From assembly GCF_000003815.2 (NCBI RefSeq), contig NC_049990.1, positions 21,725,797 through 21,789,796 on the forward strand: 64,000 nt of DNA, read 5' to 3'. Below the pieces are notes generated by a model. It did no database searches and was not told the DNA's origin. It saw only the letters and a program-made list of their open reading frames with translations. Source of the DNA: Branchiostoma floridae (lineage: Eukaryota > Chordata > Leptocardii > Amphioxiformes > Branchiostomatidae). Position 1 is the stretch's first letter, and each line of letters begins with the position of its first letter. The position numbers and the translations under genes are program-made. This document shows, piece by piece, positions 1-32,300 of this stretch.

Positions 1-3000
1 AATCAAGCCTTGTACGACCTTAAGCTTGTGACGCCTGTTGTGCTGGCCGAGAGTGAAGAAGTGAAAAAGGTTCGCTCACCTGACTGGTAGTACATGTTTG
101 AATTTGAGATGCCAGCTAATTGATTCACATGAATATTATAGTCAACTGGCAAAGAACGTACCGTTATTATTCATGAAGGGAGGAGTTTTGGTTGGAGGCC
201 ATATAATTCAATAGTGTAAACAATGGGGCTATGGTGTTCGGTGTGCTTTCATAGTATTAAAGTACACCGAACCCCAATGCCGCTCATGGGATACACAGGT
301 TATACAACCGTATGGTAGAGAACTGTGAATGAATAGGTGGATGTGACAGCTTTCATATTTGCTTCAAGGTTGGGGATTCAGTTATTCAGGGGACGGGCTA
401 TAATCAAAGGTATACATGTACGAGGGGCGTGCAATAAGTAATGGCCCTGACCCACTTTCAGTCGTCTGATCTAAATGAAATTTTGTATGTGTAATGATTC
501 ATATCTCTATGAGTTATGTTGCAAAAGACAGCTCTGAACTAATTGTGGTTTCTGATTTACTGGTGTTTGAACTTAGTCAGGTGCGAAATGGACCAGGTGT
601 GAAATGGAACCAGTTGAGTGTCGCGCAGTGATCCGGTTTTTGTATTTGAAAGGACGCACACCAAAGAAGACTTTTGATGAAATAAATGAAACTTATGGTG
701 ATGATGCCACATCATATGACCTTGTAAAACGCTGGCATCCTGAATTCAAACGTGGCCGGAAGTCTGTGGAAACAGCTCCCAGACCTGGTCGTCCCTCTTG
801 TGCCATTGATGAGGCATCTGTTGGAGGACCAACCTGGGGTGTCCTACAAAATCGGTGTCCAGAGCTGCATCAAACGATGGGAGAAATGCATAACTCTGGG
901 TGATTCCTATGAAGAGAAAGACTAATAACTGTGCCAAGTTTCATTAATCTCCTGCTATGGGAAATGGGTCAGGGCCATTACTTATTGCACGCCCCTCGTA
1001 CCTCCATACCTATCAGTAACAAGCCGTTTAACTTAAACACATCAATCGCTGATCACTCTTATCAGTCCTAATTCCATCCTCTACTGTGCAACGATATAGG
1101 TTTATACAGAGTCCGGTACAAAGGGCCGCCTTCCTGCCAACAGAACCAACGTCCTGTTCCTCGGTGACAAACGTGCCGGGAAAACCAGTCTAAAGCGCCA
1201 CCTGTCAGAAAGCGGGTTTGATCCAGAGGAGACCAGCACGGTAGGCATCGAGCGTGAGTTGGTACAAACCGAAGAGGTGGATCAACACTGGGCTGAGGTG
1301 AAAGAAACGGAGCATAATGAATTCCAAAAGGGATCCGCCTTATACACGGCCATACATGTCAATGAGGAGGGTATATCTCAACAGCCATATGCAGATAGCA
1401 CAAATCATGAGAAGGAGAACGAGAAAGAAACCTCTTCGACTTCAAAGTGGTCTTTCTACGTTAGGTTATTGATTGCCTTATTCCTTCCCCTTTCTTTCTC
1501 TTCTCTGTATTTTGATAAGTTTGGTCCCATCTTGTTGATGTCTATTGTTTTCTTCTGGATTATCTTATTCAAACAGGTTCACTTTAGGGGGTTCTCTATA
1601 GGTACGGGTGCTGTCATTGTAGCCACATTCATCAGATATTTTCACACATGTGTGCCTTTGCCTGATTCAAGTCTTGGTGTTATTGGCGTAGGCTTGCTCG
1701 CTGCTGCATGGTTCTCAGTGCTAGGAGCTTGTTTGGGGCTTGGGATGGGTATAGGGATGGCGTTAGCTTTGTGTTGTATGCAAATATCCACGGTGGATAC
1801 ACTGAAATTTAGAAGGCCAGTGTTCTATGAATCAATCTTTGAATCCATGTGCTTCATTATAGGAATGTTGATTTCGTCACGGCTGAAATCACCATTTTTC
1901 AAGATGATTGCTTTCGTCGTACCTATCGCTGGAATCCTTATTAGTGAATATGTTTCTCTAAGTTTTGCAACAAATGGTATCTCTGGCTTAGTATTTGCCA
2001 TGTCCCTGGTAATGGGTATGGACTTTGAGCGCCTTCTGTCCAGAAAATATTACTCTGAATATGTACGCAAGAACAAAGTACTTATTGATGTGGCTGGATT
2101 TATTTTGGCAATATTTTTTGGAAAGTTGATAAGTTTAAATTTCGTCTTTGATTTTGTCAATGTCAGCTTTGCTTCCATATATCTGGGACTTATCATCTAC
2201 TTTGAGGTAGAATTTAGAATGAGGCAGACGAAATATCCTTACAGATTCGTCGGGACAACTATTTCTCAGTACAGGTCCAAGGATGATCTACCAAAGAAAA
2301 TGCTGCTGTTAGATTTTGCAGGAGACCGCCTATACTATGCCACTCACCCTCTATTCATTTCTAGCCACGCTATCTTTTTGGTGGTCTTCAGTCTGGCTAA
2401 ATTTGCACAAAATGAAAGTTATCATATGCGACGTTTGACATTCTGGCTACATTCAATCGCCGCCCATGCGAAAAACCCAGAATGCAAAGTATTTCTTGTG
2501 GGTACCCACAGAGATCTAGTGCAACGCAAAAGAAGAAAACAAATCACAAAAAGAATAACAAAGAAACTTGGTCAGTACCCTCGACTTGTTGAGATGATAG
2601 TGTTGAATATGGTTAATGTGTTCGACAATAGCACACACCACACATTTGTGTTTTGTGTCGAAAATTCGGCACAAATCAAAAACGATTTGGAAGGGCTCCG
2701 CCTCCGGGAAACATTGTTGTATGAAGTGAATAGAGCGGAGCACGTCAGACATGAAATTCCCCTCAGGTGGTTGAACTTTTACGACCTAACAAACAGAAGG
2801 AAAGGGCGCAGAGGTAGGAAGGACTACCCTAAGAACTGCACTTCTTCAACGGAAGCAGTTTGGAGCATGATGCAAAAAGAGGGCATTTTCAAACCAGACG
2901 AAAAAGACGATTTTGATCTGATGCTAGATTTTTATAACCGAGTTGGGGAAATCAAGCTCATGGAAGGGTTCGTGGTTTTTGACCCACAACTTGTAGTTGA

Positions 3001-4650
3001 TCTACTTACCAACCTGCTCAGGATGCCAGTTCAAGATGGCGCCTTGGTGCCCCTGAAACTCATGGAAAAGCTTTGCAAGAATCTCAACGCCCCTTGCGAA
3101 GAGGTGATTACCATTCTTAGGCAGTATGATATCATTTGTCCCATTCTGTGCTTACCTAAAGAAGAAGACATAACCTATTCTGTACATTACATTATTCCAC
3201 TCAAGCTCGGACGACTCGACCGAAAACGCAAAGTCGTTGAGGCTGAAGAAGATATCTTAAGCTCGGATCCAGAAGACGATGACAAAGCATGGTTGCCGTT
3301 TTGGCAGAACAGGGGGACAGATGTCTGTTTCTTCTTTAACTTCAAAGAGTTCAATCCAGATGCCATATTCATCCGTCTTTTGGCCAGGTGCTTGTACATT
3401 TCTCAGCGATCTCACGACATGTTGAACAGACGAAACGTGTACAGCGATGCAGGGAGGTTCTATCAGTCCAACGACTTCTACTATAAAATTGAACTCCGCT
3501 CACCCTCAGATGACCAGAACTTGGTACAGGTCACCATTGGCAGAGCACCAGAGTCGGGGGTTCGTGAACTCCTGTGCCGCATACACCGTGACATCAAGGA
3601 CATCTGTGACAGAGACTTTCCCTACGTGAGCTACACGTTTGGGATACAGTGTGAGGCGTGTATACGTGTGAAAAGTTCTGATGACCAACCAGACCAGAGG
3701 GAGCACCCACGGCACATACTGAACATCTCAACACACGAGGAAGACTTCCCATCAGATGGCGTGACAAGATTGCTGTGTGAGAGGCAGGTGCACGAAGTTG
3801 ACTTTCGACGTTGGGTAAGTAGTACTCCTTACTACCAGACTTCAATCTTCAATGATATTTGCTTGTTCAGGACAAACCGACGATATACAGATTTGCACAT
3901 ACATGATTGTTACATGCTTTAATATCGTTCAAAAAAGCAAACACAATACACGCATTGCTTACTATGACACACGCAAGCAGGAAAAGTGTAGTGACCATTT
4001 CTTGTTTTCTCCCAATAGCCGGACACCATTCGAGTGATAGAAGACAGCAAATCGGTCAGTCAGGCAGATATTGAACGTGGCCGCAGTAAGTACATTCAAG
4101 TTATTCCCTTGGCATTGTCATGAATGCTCTTGTCATCAGATTTAACCACCTACATTAGGCGAGATTCAATTTCACTCCCTTCCAGGGCTCTTACACTCCC
4201 TACCCTAAGAGAACGAGTACGGGAACCTGGAAGCAACTCGAATTTCACCCAGGCTACATCTACATGGCCATCTTCTGACATATCTTAGTGATCCTTAGTG
4301 CACGTATTGAATATTAGTAGACCCATTGAATATTTGGGTTTGGTTATACATGCTCAATGACTGATCCTACAGGTGTCGAAATGACGGAGCCACACTGCAA
4401 ACTTCTCACCAAGAACCGGCTGCAGCTGCTGCGTAACGTCGACCCAGATGATGTCATCAACTGCCTTGTCCAAGATGACGTCATAAGTACCAGATATGCT
4501 GAGGAGATTCGCGGCCAGCAAACAACTCGCGGCCGTGTTGGGATGGTGTTGGACTATCTACCCCGCAGGAGTGATGCGGCATTTCACTTCTTCAAACGTG
4601 CACTTCTGACGACAAATCAAAATCATGTAGCCAATCTTCTGGAGGAATGA
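1..4650 (+). CDS. Roco-family GTPase with multi-pass membrane insert and C-terminal CARD (5' partial)
   Basis: Coding exons read as <1-69 (probable), 1100-3814, 4019-4085 and 4373-4650, joining in frame to about 1042 residues with the N-terminus missing. The large exon starts after an in-frame TAG/acceptor and encodes a P-loop (GDKRAGKTS, about 1163-1189), a switch-type STVGIE, then an acidic linker and about ten hydrophobic segments (about 1448-2215). The GTPase core then resumes with DFAGD (2312-2326), a GTHRD motif in the G4 place (about 2500-2515) and CVENSA near G5. A COR-like region follows (RWLNFYDL, then VGEIKLMEGFVVFDPQLVVDLL and the FNFKEFNP part). Donor TGG|GTAAGT at 3814 is strong. 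The last exon is a CARD. Roc-COR proteins are GTP-controlled signalling switches; CARDs recruit CARD partners in innate immunity or cell death. Membrane location is inferred. The first exon and its weak donor (AAG|GTTCGC) are the least certain part. Confidence 0.85.
421..998 (+). mobile_element. Internally deleted mariner-type element with perfect 34-bp TIRs
   Basis: The 34 bases at 421-454 (starting CGAGGGGCGTGCAATAAGTA) are a perfect inverted copy of 965-998. TA dinucleotides flank both ends (419-420 and 999-1000), as expected of Tc1/mariner insertion. Only 578 bp remain. The inside keeps the transposase N-terminal helix-turn-helix and the last ~30 codons, but the catalytic DDE/D core is gone, so the element could move only in trans. 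It lies in the intron upstream of the 1100-3814 exon of the Roco gene. The perfect TIRs suggest a recent arrival. Confidence 0.93.
604..931 (+). pseudogene. Mariner transposase remnant (HTH plus C-terminal tail)
   Basis: From ATG 604 the frame gives about 73 residues of the Mos1-type DNA-binding domain (VIRFLYLKGRTPKKTFDEI, YGDDA, VKRWHPEFKRGR, RPGRPS). After about 823 the frame loses similarity. In another frame, 838-931 encodes the typical mariner C-terminus (IGVQSCIKRWEKCITLGDSY) and a stop. The catalytic middle is deleted and the two ends are out of frame with each other, so no active enzyme is made. Confidence 0.85.
1448..2215 (+). other. Multi-pass membrane segment inserted in the Roc GTPase domain
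   Basis: About 255 residues, between the P-loop/switch I and the DFAGD switch II of the same open exon, are strongly hydrophobic. About ten stretches of 17-24 residues can be counted, starting with SFYVRLLIALFLPLSF and ending near ASIYLGLIIYFEV, with short charged loops (KFRRP, RLLSRKYYSEYVRKNK). The reading frame stays open throughout without stops, and charge is placed as in a polytopic membrane protein, so it is coding and not a retained intron. I do not recognise the segment as a known transporter or channel family. Confidence 0.75.
4373..4650 (+). CDS. Terminal exon encoding a CARD domain
   Basis: This exon follows acceptor CCTACAG at 4372 and completes a split serine codon from the exon at 4019-4085. 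It encodes 91 further residues and ends with TGA at 4648-4650. The pattern LLTKNRLQLLRNVD, then DDVISTRYAEEI, then TTRGRVGMVLDYLPRR, AAFHFFKRAL, fits the six-helix CARD fold: a first helix ending in a hydrophobic patch, the 'D.V.S....E.I' second and third helices, and the 'R...LLD.LPRRG..AF..F..AL' signature of helices 4-5. It is the only recognisable domain after COR, so CARD-CARD recruitment is the likely output. Confidence 0.88.
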
Positions 4651-6778: not shown

Positions 6779-9700
6779 TCACCACCACCAACACAAGGGA
6801 GCGAACATGAGAGAGCCGACGGCAGCGCCTGCCAACATCCCCATGGCCATGTTTGTACCGTCGTCACGGTGACGCCGGCGCTCGTCGATGATGATCGTCT
6901 GACCATTGGGCTGTGTGTACACTGTTAAAGGTAGGGATAAGATTATATACATATAACGCACAGTCTGAAAAGTAAACTTACTAAAACGTATCCCGAAGAT
7001 GCTGAATATTCCACAACATATATTCTACAAGTTAACAAGGAGAATACCAAAACAGGCGCCTAAACATTTGCAGAAACCTGAAATTCCTTATGTGATACCT
7101 GCAAATCACTTTACAAAGACAAACCTTTATGCTTATGTGATATGCACAAATTACTATGTGACACATACAAACCTTATGTGACACACCGGTTTGCAAAAGG
7201 TTTGTGCGAATCACATAAGATTTGTGTTGTATAGTGATTTGTGCATATCACATAAGGTTTGTACATTGTCGCAAAGTGATTTGTGCGATTTTCATAAGAT
7301 TCGTGTGTTTTTGCATAGTAATTCCTGTGTAACGCATAAGATTCATACGAATTTTATAAGATTCGTGCAAATGCTTAGGCACCTCTGTAAAAGATAACTT
7401 TGAAATAAAATCTTGCATAATGGCCTATCTCTACCTATGCAAGTATAAAAAGATTTCAAGAACTTACTGTATTGACCATTCTCTATGAGATAGACTTGTC
7501 CAGGTTGTGCGTATGCATATGGAGGTGGGTTATAGAGTGGCTGTCCACCATAGAGTGGCTGTCCACCCATGCCATCATCATACACCATCTCTGTGTAAGG
7601 TGGGGGAGCACTGGACGGTCTGGAATCCTGCTGGAAAATACAAAGAATAAAAATCTGATGTTCAAATAATCGAACAGTCTACTTGACCATATGAATGCGA
7701 ATCTACATGACTTATAATATAAGTTATACATGAATGTATATATCTATTGAATCTATGATTCATTTTAAGTCTTGTTATGTATCTGGGGACACCTGAAAAA
7801 CGGAACGAACCTGAGCTGTGATCTACTAGTAAAACAAATAAATGCATGAATCCACAACATAACATCTTCTATTCTTTGGATTGTTTGATTTGCCCTCAGG
7901 GAATTCTAACCTTCGTCTACTATCATGGATTTTGACACATAAAAAACATCAATTTCACAGTATCAAGAACCTTACGTTTTCAACAATCTTTGCCTCCTCA
8001 AGAGCAAACTTCCACACAGCGGCATCGTCAGCGTTGTCCGCACACACAAACATGGCGGTGGTTCTCGTCACGATGGCGAGCAGCGCGTCCCTCGATCTCC
8101 CGTCTGGCACGGTTACATCGTTCACCATGCCGCCCAGTTTGATGCCCAGACATTCTTTTCTCATGCTGATCATTCCTTTGACCTCTAGTTTTCTCTCATC
8201 TTCATAGTGGGCCAGCTGGCCATCGACATACAGGACGAAGAACTCACGCTTCCATCTCTTCAGCACAGTGGCTGCAAGGTGCATGAACAAAAGTAGTAAG
8301 GAACTACATCTATGGTAAGTTTTAAAAGATAAAAAACATAGGACTAGGAGACAATGATTCATATGGCACCATAGCAGCTAAATCTTTGCAAACTGCATTG
8401 AAAATAAGTGATTTCAAGTCAGTGTGACATCACTGACACAGTGGTAGGGGTGCTTGGCCCAGAACCTGATGTGATTTGATGCTGTGATATTGGAAAGGCA
8501 CTTCCTCACTTCACTTTGATGAAAATGAGGTCCTAACTTCGGTATGGGACATCCCTCGGATAGGACGATAAATGGAGGTCCCGCATTTGAAGAGAGCCAC
8601 ATCTCGAGCATGACAAACTTATCAAAAAAACTAGAGTTCAGGGACCTCATGCCTCCATGAAACATTTAGTGCTTTGTTGTGGATGGTATGTATGTTTATA
8701 GTCGGCTGTATTTGAGAGTAATGGTTATAAATGTTATGGGAAAGTAGTGGTGTATTTATTTAATGACACAGAGGANNNNNNNNNNNNNNNNNNNNNNNNN
8801 NNNNNNNNNNNNNNNNNNNNNNNNNNNNNNNNNNNNNNNNNNNNNNNNNNNNNNNNNNNNNNNNNNNNNNNNNNNNNNNNNNNNNNNNNNNNNNNNNNNN
8901 NNNNNNNNNNNNNNNNNNNNNNNNNNNNNNNNNNNNNNNNNNNNNNNNNNNNNNNNNNNNNNNNNNNNNNNNNNNNNNNNNNNNNNNNAGAAGGGATGTG
9001 GCCAACTTTAGTCAGATGGTGATTTGATTTTCCACCAATATGTCATAACATCAGCTGTTCACACGGTACAAAAACGAGATGCACACTTTCCTCTGATAGC
9101 CCTACACCAACTGTAAGATGAATACTTGGCGCCAACCCCGTCTGCTAAAAAACAAGTACCATTGGCTACGAAAGAGACAACTAACAACTGTCCCTTATCG
9201 TAACAAAATCAGAACATCTGTATTGCCCATAAAACTTCTGACACCCAACCCATCTAAGATGAGAGGACCTAATGGCATTTTAATCACCATGTCACTCAAA
9301 TCAGCAGTACAGTATGTGAGACATCCATACCTGTTAAGCATTACCGTTAAATGTACCTCAACTTCTTACAACTATACTTACGCTTCACATCTCCATGATA
9401 TCCTAAGCAGACATAAATAAAACTAATTATCATATTCAAAAAACTCGGGGTTCGTCTGTCATACAAATCACCTCACTATCTGCTTGGAGCTAAGCCCATT
9501 AACAAACACTTAAAGTTAAAGCACGATGCCTGTTCCAATATATCGCAGATATAGGGGTGATTTCTGATATTATTACATGAATTATAACAACAGATACGGC
9601 GCCCAAAATATCATCGATTTGAGCTTTCATCACACCCCACCAACACAACAAGTATGAAACCAATCCATCCAGCCGTTCTTGAGTAATCTTGTACACAGAC

Positions 9701-29309: not shown

Positions 29310-32300
29310 TTATGAGAACTCTCTAGCTTTCCATTTTACCAGCCAGTCAGATGTTCTCTGTTTAGATTCTGCCCACTTGAACAGTGGTTTGTAGCCGAGA
29401 AGCTGTGTGGCTTTGTTATAGTTAACGTAGAACGTAGTGTTTTGGATAGTCAGTATTTCCGAATTTAACAGGGGGACAAAGGTGTAAAAAGGCTTCACAA
29501 GGAAACGAACTAAGGCTAAGACATGAGCGATGAAGTACAGCAGCCACAGAGGGAGGACCAAATTGTCGTCATAACGGATCCCGATAGGGGCGCACAGCTC
29601 GGCATACAGCGTATCGTCGTCTTTTAGGGGCGTATCGTCGGATATGTAGAACGCCTCGCCTCCAGCCGTCTCCGGTGACGTCACTAGCGTCTGGGCGGCC
29701 AGCAGGTGGGCCCAGGCCACGTTCCCGACGTACAGGCGGCTGACTTTGACCGTGGGGGGACAGATGCGTTTCATGGGCCGCGTGAAAATGCCAACACCAC
29801 GTTTCTTATAGAACCCTAGTACTGGCATTTCGCCATCTCCGTATATACCTGCAATGATAATGATAGATTAGTAGTAACTAGAGTTCCATTTTATGAGCCG
29901 ATGGTAAGGCTATTGATGAATTGTAACAAACTGGCCGCACACTGGACATTTTGAGGAGCTACATACTCTAATGTCTTGTCTCCAGGATTCTTTAATAGCA
30001 CCAGAATGAGGTAACAGGACTAGTCTACTTCTAAAATAGGGGGATTTGAGTAGGAGTGATCACATGGTTCACAGTGGGTTCATAACATTCCTCCCCTTAC
30101 CGGAGAAGATTGACAAGATCAATCTGAATAATCATGAAAATATGAAACCTACTACCTGTAATGGAAGTATTTTTCGACACCCACTTGGGAAATGGTTAGC
30201 ACCATCAATACAAGACTTTGGATACAAAAAGTAAAGTCGTACCTCAAAATAAACCCCCCACCACCTGCAATTCAAATTTGACGCCATTGGGGCCCATGAT
30301 ATGCACATTTGTGAAATAAGGCTTTTTCCTAGTAGTATATAATAGATTTGGTTGCCATGTAAGATATTATGTCTTTCTAATATCGGAAGGGTGATTTTTT
30401 TCTGCTTCCCTATCGGCCTCAAATGACACATTTCCTCCCAAATTGCACGTCGTGCCAAAATCCGAATATTGTGATTTTCCCAGAAACATGTACATGTGAT
30501 TTGCATCAAAAGCTTTTTATCCTTAAGTTTGAACAAATTAATCCACAGTAAAACTGCTAGTATAGTAAGGTACTTAATCTGGCTACCATCACTGTCAATT
30601 GTGTGCCTGAACTCTTATGTACTAGTAACAATGGATGAAAGGTCTTACTAGGAAATTTTTTGCACATTTCTGATTTGAAAGGAAAGCAATAAGTCACGAT
30701 GATGTATAAGATTACAGCTTGTCCAGGCCTAGGCTTTGCTGAAATGTGTCATGTATAGTCCAGAGTCTAGTCTTGTATCTAGTCAACCCCACCTCCCATA
30801 CTTTCTCCAGGGCTTGCTGTCACTCAGGTTCCACTGCGTATATCTGAAAGAGTTAACTATTCTCTCATTGTATGTGGGTTCTCTTTCTCTGTCTGTCATG
30901 GTTGTGCTCATGGATAGTGTATCATTGCAATAATTGGCATAAATGTAGATCTCCTTTGACACCTCTCATACGTCTATGTCAGCAGTCACTTTCTCAACAT
31001 AAACTACCTCAACTCCGAATGGTACTCGATCACTGATATCACACTCTACACTATAGTATTGCCAGTTTTGTAGGTAGTTGGAAGTATTTAGATGGAGGTA
31101 AGACCTCATAATTACCGGCATCAAACAATTTAGCCTCAGATCTGCTTTGAGTACTAGTTGCCATTCAGATGTACTTCTAGTTGCCATGCTGTAACTGAAA
31201 GCTAATTTACATACATTCTCTGATTGTTCTACAACTGTCACTCTCCCTAACATGTTGAAAGTGCACAAAATTTATGGTATTAATCTGCTGCAATGGTAAT
31301 GTATCTGATATCCAAGTGCCTATTGTTATTTTTCAGAGGGTAGAAATGAAAGATTGAACTTTGCTACTAAGCCCCCCTTTCCACTAGACGGTGACTGTGC
31401 TGAGCTCTCACAGCGTCCTAAACGGATTTCAGTTACCCTCGAGTTCATCTTGGGTATATCATACAGAATGTAAAAGTGTAACTGAATAGACAATAAAACA
31501 GACATTTCGCCCCCCTCCTCATAAACTCCAAACGGCTTGCTGTACAATCACCAAATATGTAAGTCACTCCTTTAATTTTGGTGTATTGATAACACTGTAT
31601 GTCACTCTACTACTATGCCATAATATGAGGTAAGTATGACACCATTAAGGTGATGTTATTGGCAATAACCGTCTAAACAGAGGATTTTGTATCAAACAAA
31701 AGGTTAACAAAAATGGGTGTCTATAAGTCTACTAAGGTAGGTAAGACTTTTGTTGTCAACGACAGTCGGATTGACTTTGATGCATCGGCAGAAAATGAAG
31801 TCAAATTTATCTTAGCTGGCTTTGAGAACGTTGTTGTTGTTGTTGTCTCTCTAACTACTTCAATTCGTCGTTATATGGTCACATGTACCTTTCTTCTCTT
31901 CCATCTCTCTTTGTGCTTCCAACACATGTGTTTTCCGGCCCACTCGCTGCTGTTTCCACTTGGTCGACTTTTGCACACTTTTGTAGGTGGTTGCAATTTA
32001 ACTTCAGCTTCCTCAACTTCCTATCACTTTTATCGTCAGCTCTCATTTGAGAACCTTCAGCTTGGATTGTCAATCTTAATGTTTTAAACTGCATTATTTT
32101 CGAAACGGACAACAACTATCCATGGAAGTGATTTAGTAAAAACAATATAAAGAACTAGCGAAATTCGAGTGATAATAACCTAATTTGCTATCTCGCTTAT
32201 GACATGGTCAGCCATCTTGGATTTTGACCAATTACGTCATCAAATTAGCATAGATCATTTATACTTAATCATGAATTTTACATTATATTACATATGATGT

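Follow-up and report, generated by a model that had tools for sequence, protein, structure and literature searches.

The window analyzed here is a stretch of 64,000 nucleotides of the Branchiostoma floridae genome (contig NC_049990.1, forward-strand positions 21,725,797 to 21,789,796), the start of which contains a gene predicted to encode a Roco protein whose GTPase domain, Roc, is interrupted by a putative polytopic membrane domain. At the center of this gene is a single open frame on the forward strand (1100-3922, 940 codons), inside which the P-loop, the insert, switch II, and the G4 motif all lie. The main exon, which carries Roc, the membrane insert, the rest of Roc, and COR, occupies positions 1100-3814 (905 codons) and is bordered by an acceptor, ATATAG, recognized by eye immediately before 1100, and by a phase-0 donor, GTAAGT, at 3815. 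Upstream of it, the last 23 codons of a putative coding exon (...AESEEVKK) were recognized by eye at 1-69 from a phase-0 donor at 70, and the phase fits; the sequence before this exon falls within a run of Ns directly upstream of the window (L020:3915-5797). Downstream, a 67-nucleotide linker exon (4019-4085), delimited by its splice sites and phase, is entered in phase 0 and left in phase 1, and precedes a terminal exon with a CARD and the stop codon (4373-4650). Joining 1100-3814, 4019-4085, and the CARD exon from 4373 stays in frame and yields 1,019 residues counted from 1100. All of these features lie on the forward strand.

The order of parts in the sequence is P-loop, switch I, insert, switch II, G4, COR, and CARD. 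The P-loop motif (G1, GDKRAGKTS, residue 22; 1163-1189) lies in a Pfam Roc stretch and is followed by switch I and the putative strand β2 (STVGIERELVQTEEVDQHW; 1235-1291), as placed by alignment with the LRRK2 Roc and with 4wnr. Hydropathy then delineates a polar linker of 54 residues (1292-1453) ahead of the predicted polytopic membrane domain (residues 119-368; 1454-2203), the position and profile of which are as in the paralogues described below. The switch II motif (G3, DFAGD, residue 405; 2312-2326) sits inside the best Pfam Roc stretch (residues 392-472), and the G4 motif (THRD, residue 469; 2504-2515) aligns with THLD of LRRK2. G1, G3, and G4 are all present, and the protein may bind GTP. 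The COR region, starting at EIPLRW, spans 2753-3814 and was delimited with a profile of the gene family, which matches the LRRK2 Roc-COR at E 1.5e-21 over profile positions 351-636 (β3 through COR). In the window protein alone, Pfam finds Roc in two separate stretches (E 5.5e-14) and no COR at E up to 1. On this sequence evidence, Roc by Pfam and COR by the relatives and the family profile, the window protein is a Roco. A preliminary description of this DNA had placed the P-loop, DFAGD, and THRD in one open exon, with about 60 polar and 255 hydrophobic residues forming some ten membrane segments between P-loop and switch II, and with COR behind them. Its figures prove right to within a few residues (we find about 54 polar and about 250 hydrophobic residues, and ten candidate segments between residues 119 and 368), and the COR that it named is recovered in the relatives and through the profile.

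The LRRK2 Roc provides a reference for the point at which Roc is interrupted. In a phmmer alignment, the gap between the stretch ending in TVGI and the stretch before DFAG amounts to 16 residues in LRRK2 and 348 in the window protein; because the alignment breaks between these two landmarks, the insert is placed, from the sequence, between strands β2 and β3, the interswitch of Roc. The first aligned stretch alone reaches only 1.9 bits against LRRK2, and the same region matches the Roco 4wnr at E 7.2e-6. Once the insert is removed, the joined halves form one Pfam Roc match of 64.1 bits covering model positions 2-119 of 119, compared with 53 bits in two pieces. Measured by motif, the distance from P-loop to DxxG is 383 residues in the window protein versus 47, 51, 48, 47, and 47 in five Roco open reading frames of the same genome with contiguous Roc (524-1468 residues; L028 alone also Pfam-checked for Roc); a usual contiguous Roc of about 200 residues is not what the window protein contains. 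The family profile also matches the P-loops of Rocos, prokaryotic ones included, at profile positions 9-53 or 14-52, and none of the 55 chains among the profile matches listed has its best-matching stretch inside the insert. The two Pfam stretches, the coding nature of the insert, and a layout common to the relatives bear out the first description of Roc as split by a predicted polytopic segment. The further suggestion of a nucleotide site built from two parts can be refined: the break falls in the loop between β2 and β3, a place at which insertions should be tolerable for a Ras-like fold, so an abnormal site need not be assumed.

A search of the genome (513 Mb, 431 contigs) places the gene in a family of at least 12 loci with the split Roc layout on seven contigs: the window copy (C12), C1, C2, C8, six copies on C15, C17, and C18. 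The C15 copies lie in a row at 12.97-13.01 Mb; the sixth, C15f, contains a run of Ns, and C18 has a 100-base N gap in the insert. The frame is open from P-loop through insert to COR in the window copy and in seven others (C1, C8, and C15a-e), to which the window protein is 30-31% identical. C17 consists of two parts nearly 10 kb apart, a distance that we read as an apparent intron inside the insert. The P-loop and DxxG are retained, by reading, at all 12 loci. Among 14 family rows, drawn as sequences or fragments from all loci except the masked C15f (11 of 12), Pfam at E up to 1 recognizes Roc in 14, COR-A in 10, and COR-B in 7. N-terminal leucine-rich repeats were not seen by eye in the upstream open reading frames of C1, C8, C15c, C17, and C18, to which Pfam was not applied.

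The ten candidate membrane segments of the window protein (119-136, 141-157, 165-181, 192-208, 212-229, 246-262, 266-282, 293-309, 328-344, and 352-368) were called by a simple script that applies a hydrophobicity scale with a cut-off chosen ad hoc. Each is 17-18 residues long with a favorable apparent insertion energy, and the same script applied to the five contiguous-Roc controls returns 0, 3, 0, 1, and 0 segments. The copies agree broadly in count, with 10 segments in the window copy, C8, C15a, C15b, and C15d, 9 in C1 and C15c, and 8 in C15e; C17 has six candidates before and four after its apparent intron, and C18 is gapped there. Over residues 119-368, the hydropathy of the window insert tracks that of the Death-domain group described below with r = 0.58 (best circular shift 0.44), a match that the alignment itself may favor; identity per segment between the window insert and its relatives is 7-37%. 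The insert could in principle be a hydrophobic soluble domain, a view with which its database profile is compatible: no Pfam match covers it, the PDB gives four chance-level matches (one enzyme, E 2 and above), and NCBIfam gives nothing convincing. About ten segments of such length and energy, a profile common to distant relatives, and only 0-3 segments in the controls nevertheless make a soluble domain improbable. One NCBIfam match, of the C15b insert to glpT (E 7e-5, 22 bits versus a cut-off of 633), was rejected as chance hydrophobic similarity.

The insert appears to be translated rather than removed. If the hydrophobic segment were a retained intron, or the frame a readthrough of two adjacent genes, the true product would have a normal Roc, and the break of frame within the C2 insert would suit such an account. 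Against it, the insert frame is open here and in the seven paralogues despite an overall identity of only 30-31%, and C17 has hydrophobic segments on each side of the apparent intron in its insert. In addition, all 21 pairs among the seven close paralogues, which belong to the Death-domain group (see below), give the insert a ratio of nonsynonymous to synonymous substitution rates (dN/dS) below 1, with a range of 0.24-0.92; in pairs that include the window copy, insert dS is saturated and no ratio is possible. On these three observations we reject intron retention and a chance frame, and we give the account as a whole next to no credence.

In the same pairs, dN/dS is 0.10-0.31 for the first Roc part and 0.19-0.43 for the rest of Roc plus COR. 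In 18 of the 21 pairs (all but C15a-d, C15b-d, and C15c-e), dN of the insert exceeds that of the remaining Roc plus COR by a factor of two or more. Within the Death-domain group, identity is 29-59% in segments 3-8 and 56-78% in segments 1, 2, 9, and 10, compared with 92% at switch II and 78% in COR. The membrane part would hence be the fastest-changing part of the protein, a pattern that either selection or relaxed constraint fits. Insert dS is likewise raised in most pairs with high insert dN, and gene conversion is likely between C15c and C15e, so we claim only that the insert evolves faster, not that it is under positive selection.

Relaxed constraint is what one might expect if the membrane domain served only as an anchor, pore, or transporter-like effector, with Roc as a scaffold and death-fold signaling set by abundance or localization instead of a GTP switch. 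The low identity of segments 3-8 relative to switch II fits this, as does the loss of the G4 aspartate at 8 of the 12 loci (it is retained in the window copy, C15e, C17, and C18). The universal retention of P-loop and DxxG, the presence of G1, G3, and G4 together in the window copy, and purifying selection on Roc and COR (dN/dS 0.10-0.43) speak against this view, and we consider a pure scaffold rather unlikely.

The C-terminal CARD is recognized by Pfam in the frame 4330-4650 (E 1.5e-12, 47.8 bits versus a cut-off of 23.9) and weakly resembles the CARDs of RAIDD, CED-3, NOD1, and APAF1 (E 0.007-0.03). A tblastn search of the other family loci with the window CARD gave nothing convincing, and a CARD is seen in the window copy only. 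Ten relatives in all carry a Death domain: Pfam finds Death in six of the six pieces given to it, which had been picked by tblastn or by eye (C1, C2, C8, C15a, C15f, and C17, the last a 50-residue piece), and tblastn finds it in the four other C15 copies. In C1, C8, and C15b, a candidate 67-nucleotide exon of the same phase as that in the window follows a phase-0 donor and precedes the Death domain exon; it was chosen among two or three candidates per gene, and its peptide is alike in the three. C15a has the same 67-nucleotide exon, with a GC donor. Because this phase-shifting exon precedes both kinds of domain, the CARD very probably belongs to the window gene, as the preliminary description had it, and CARD and Death domain likely occupy the same slot. 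The CARD could alternatively be a small gene of its own, the Roco ending without a death-fold domain, and the 558 bases that separate the main exon from the CARD exon leave room for this. The intervening phase-matched exon, with its good splice sites and its counterparts before the Death domain exon in three relatives, renders a separate gene very improbable.

At C18, a methionine-free open exon (L014 7532-7798) lies some 590 bases beyond the exon that ends COR. Two exons of a caspase come after it (E 4.4e-9 and 5.1e-18), of which the second carries SHG and QACRG, and further on lies a p10-like stretch. The caspase is possibly fused to the C18 Roco, the phases being compatible by eye, with a separate caspase gene as the alternative. 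The Death domains, and perhaps a caspase, in the relatives fit the cell-death or immune role that had been suggested for the gene at the outset. The caspase region that immediately follows the Roco at C18 is L014:7532-9000 and L021. Around the other family copies, we also note two CARD matches at G000:C15:13099635-13107823, some 90 kb from the six-copy C15 cluster, and second Death-domain-like fragments downstream of some copies (L015:8090-8218, L010:1230-1337, and L017:1153-1260), one match having an internal stop.

Among the Rocos examined, those nearest to the family that have no membrane insert are L022-L026. Their P-loop and DxxG lie in separate frames, with a break after β2 and a polar stretch before β3 (Roc halves read in L022, L023, L025, and L026). 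Pfam, run on L023 and L025, recognizes the two Roc halves and the COR-A of each protein, and L025 ends in a trypsin-like peptidase. In a midpoint-rooted COR tree of 20 rows, which omits C15f and the contiguous open reading frame C6 (no COR match) and for which the program warns of long branches meeting, the 11 membrane-insert rows group together (97/95); their neighbors are the five soluble-insert rows, and the four contiguous Rocos fall outside. A simple history would be that an enlarged, intron-bearing interswitch acquired a membrane domain once. Its donor was not found elsewhere in the genome by what was a weak search: the C15b insert matched 10 places, all of them in the family but none of them the insert of the window copy, C17, or C18, and the window insert matched itself only. 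Because single-insert searches miss other inserts of the family too, the failure to find another carrier says little.

Taken together, these features suggest a Roco GTPase with a polytopic membrane domain in the interswitch of Roc and a death-fold tail, which would pass a signal from the membrane to death-fold signaling; we assign this reading a probability of about 0.5. Under it, ten crossings, being even in number, would place both Roc halves on one side of the membrane, the cytosolic one, where they would fold together as one GTPase tethered to the membrane at its interswitch. A trigger acting on the membrane domain, which might be a ligand, a lipid, a pathogen product, or membrane damage, would be relayed through the two linkers to β2 and β3 and on to switch I and switch II, altering the nucleotide state. 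Pairing of COR would then bring the C-terminal tails together, and the clustered CARDs (Death domains in the relatives, perhaps a caspase in one) would start caspase or inflammatory signaling. Clustering as a trigger is established for the CARD domain family.

Several observations weigh against this membrane-to-death-fold reading. In addition to the frame break in the C2 insert and the missing G4 aspartate at two-thirds of the loci, the frame of C15d changes locally and its COR is cut short. The script also flags stretches of soluble Roc and COR (418-435 here, and in most relatives), which we read as buried strands or helices and discount. An even number of crossings is not secure, because the counts vary from 8 to 10 and come from an ad hoc script; in several copies the fifth segment, which could be re-entrant, is shortened or absent. 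Little is gained from the positive-inside rule, with lysine plus arginine in the supposed inside and outside loops at 9 versus 4 in the window protein and 4 versus 4 in C15a. Finally, the inserts of the window copy, of C17 and C18, and of the remaining loci may be of different origin: because single-insert searches miss the other subgroups, the case for a common origin is made by position, flanks, and hydropathy.

A stronger form of the same proposal is a one-chain receptor-GTPase, in which a fast-changing ten-segment sensor in a Ras-like interswitch would set the nucleotide state directly and act through an exchangeable output cassette, be it the CARD, a Death domain, or, in the C18 copy, a fused caspase. 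We advance this as a tentative possibility, about which we are doubtful. A Ras-like switch is normally a soluble or lipid-anchored protein that is usually coupled to receptors via exchange factors. Were the proposal true, it would define a class of innate or cell-death receptors that needs no separate exchange factor or adaptor, and the membrane-split GTPase would be an unusual wiring of a membrane sensor to a death switch. A polytopic interswitch insert would also test the limits of insertion into the fold, and whether a membrane can drive the movement of β2-β3. More broadly, little is understood of how Roco proteins are activated, and the family would connect them to outputs of the death-fold and perhaps caspase type, the output domain being exchanged as a module.

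Among other features of the window, the intron ahead of the main exon harbors a mariner-like element (401-1018), with 83-nucleotide inverted ends that are 78% complementary and, within it, a Mos1-type helix-turn-helix fragment (577-903). Two neighboring genes lie on the reverse strand: one at 7955-8377 has a weak PH-domain match below the Pfam cut-off, and one at 29310-29867 contains a 3-beta-hydroxysteroid dehydrogenase stretch.

In the open-licence literature, we found no description of a Roc split by membrane segments in work on Roco or Roc-COR proteins, and no paper on split GTPases. The gene may already exist in databases as a predicted protein without comment. In passages of PMC8195603, which treats death-like domains and takes in Branchiostoma, Roco is named only among the references. 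Term searches of the available text of papers on amphioxus immune and caspase novelties found neither 'Roc' nor 'GTPase' in PMC2575513 and neither 'GTPase' nor 'transmembrane' in PMC3196919.

Among known systems, LRRK1 and LRRK2, MFHAS1, and the bacterial Roco proteins have Roc and COR in this order, like the window protein. The Roc of LRRK2 is contiguous, without a membrane insert in our alignment, as are the Roc domains of MFHAS1 and the bacterial Rocos, whereas that of the window protein is split; no leucine-rich repeat or kinase was seen in the latter. Closer in output are Rocos of Trichoplax with CARD or death domains, according to passages of PMC4104024. There, Roc-COR is joined to such domains as it is here, and the passages concerned mention no membrane insert in Roc (PMC4104024). 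In brown algae, one named Roco has extra sequence within Roc according to part of PMC11378527, and some C-terminal domains of Ectocarpus Rocos resemble transmembrane proteins in the relevant section of PMC4104024; neither source, in these portions, describes a polytopic domain lodged between the two switches. For Aplysia, passages of PMC9334734 report Roco domains that are joined to TLR and MyD88-like proteins.

Pfam finds no FeoB domain in the window protein or the family rows at E up to 1. FeoB is a prokaryotic iron transporter whose contiguous G domain precedes its membrane domain. It resembles the window protein in being a polytopic membrane protein that carries a GTPase domain, as set out in PMC3153494. 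For the proposed coupling, the nearest analogy comes from the Arf family, in which, according to passages of PMC3012027, an interswitch toggle moves the strand before DxxG and links the far side of the protein to the nucleotide site. Arf proteins have no membrane insert in that account (PMC3012027), and a toggle in the window protein, with β2-β3 shifting register according to nucleotide state, would be a proposal by analogy only. Within B. floridae itself, the soluble-insert Rocos L022-L026, whose Roc motifs are distributed over separate frames, are likewise broken after β2, and differ from the window protein in that the stretch between the halves is polar.

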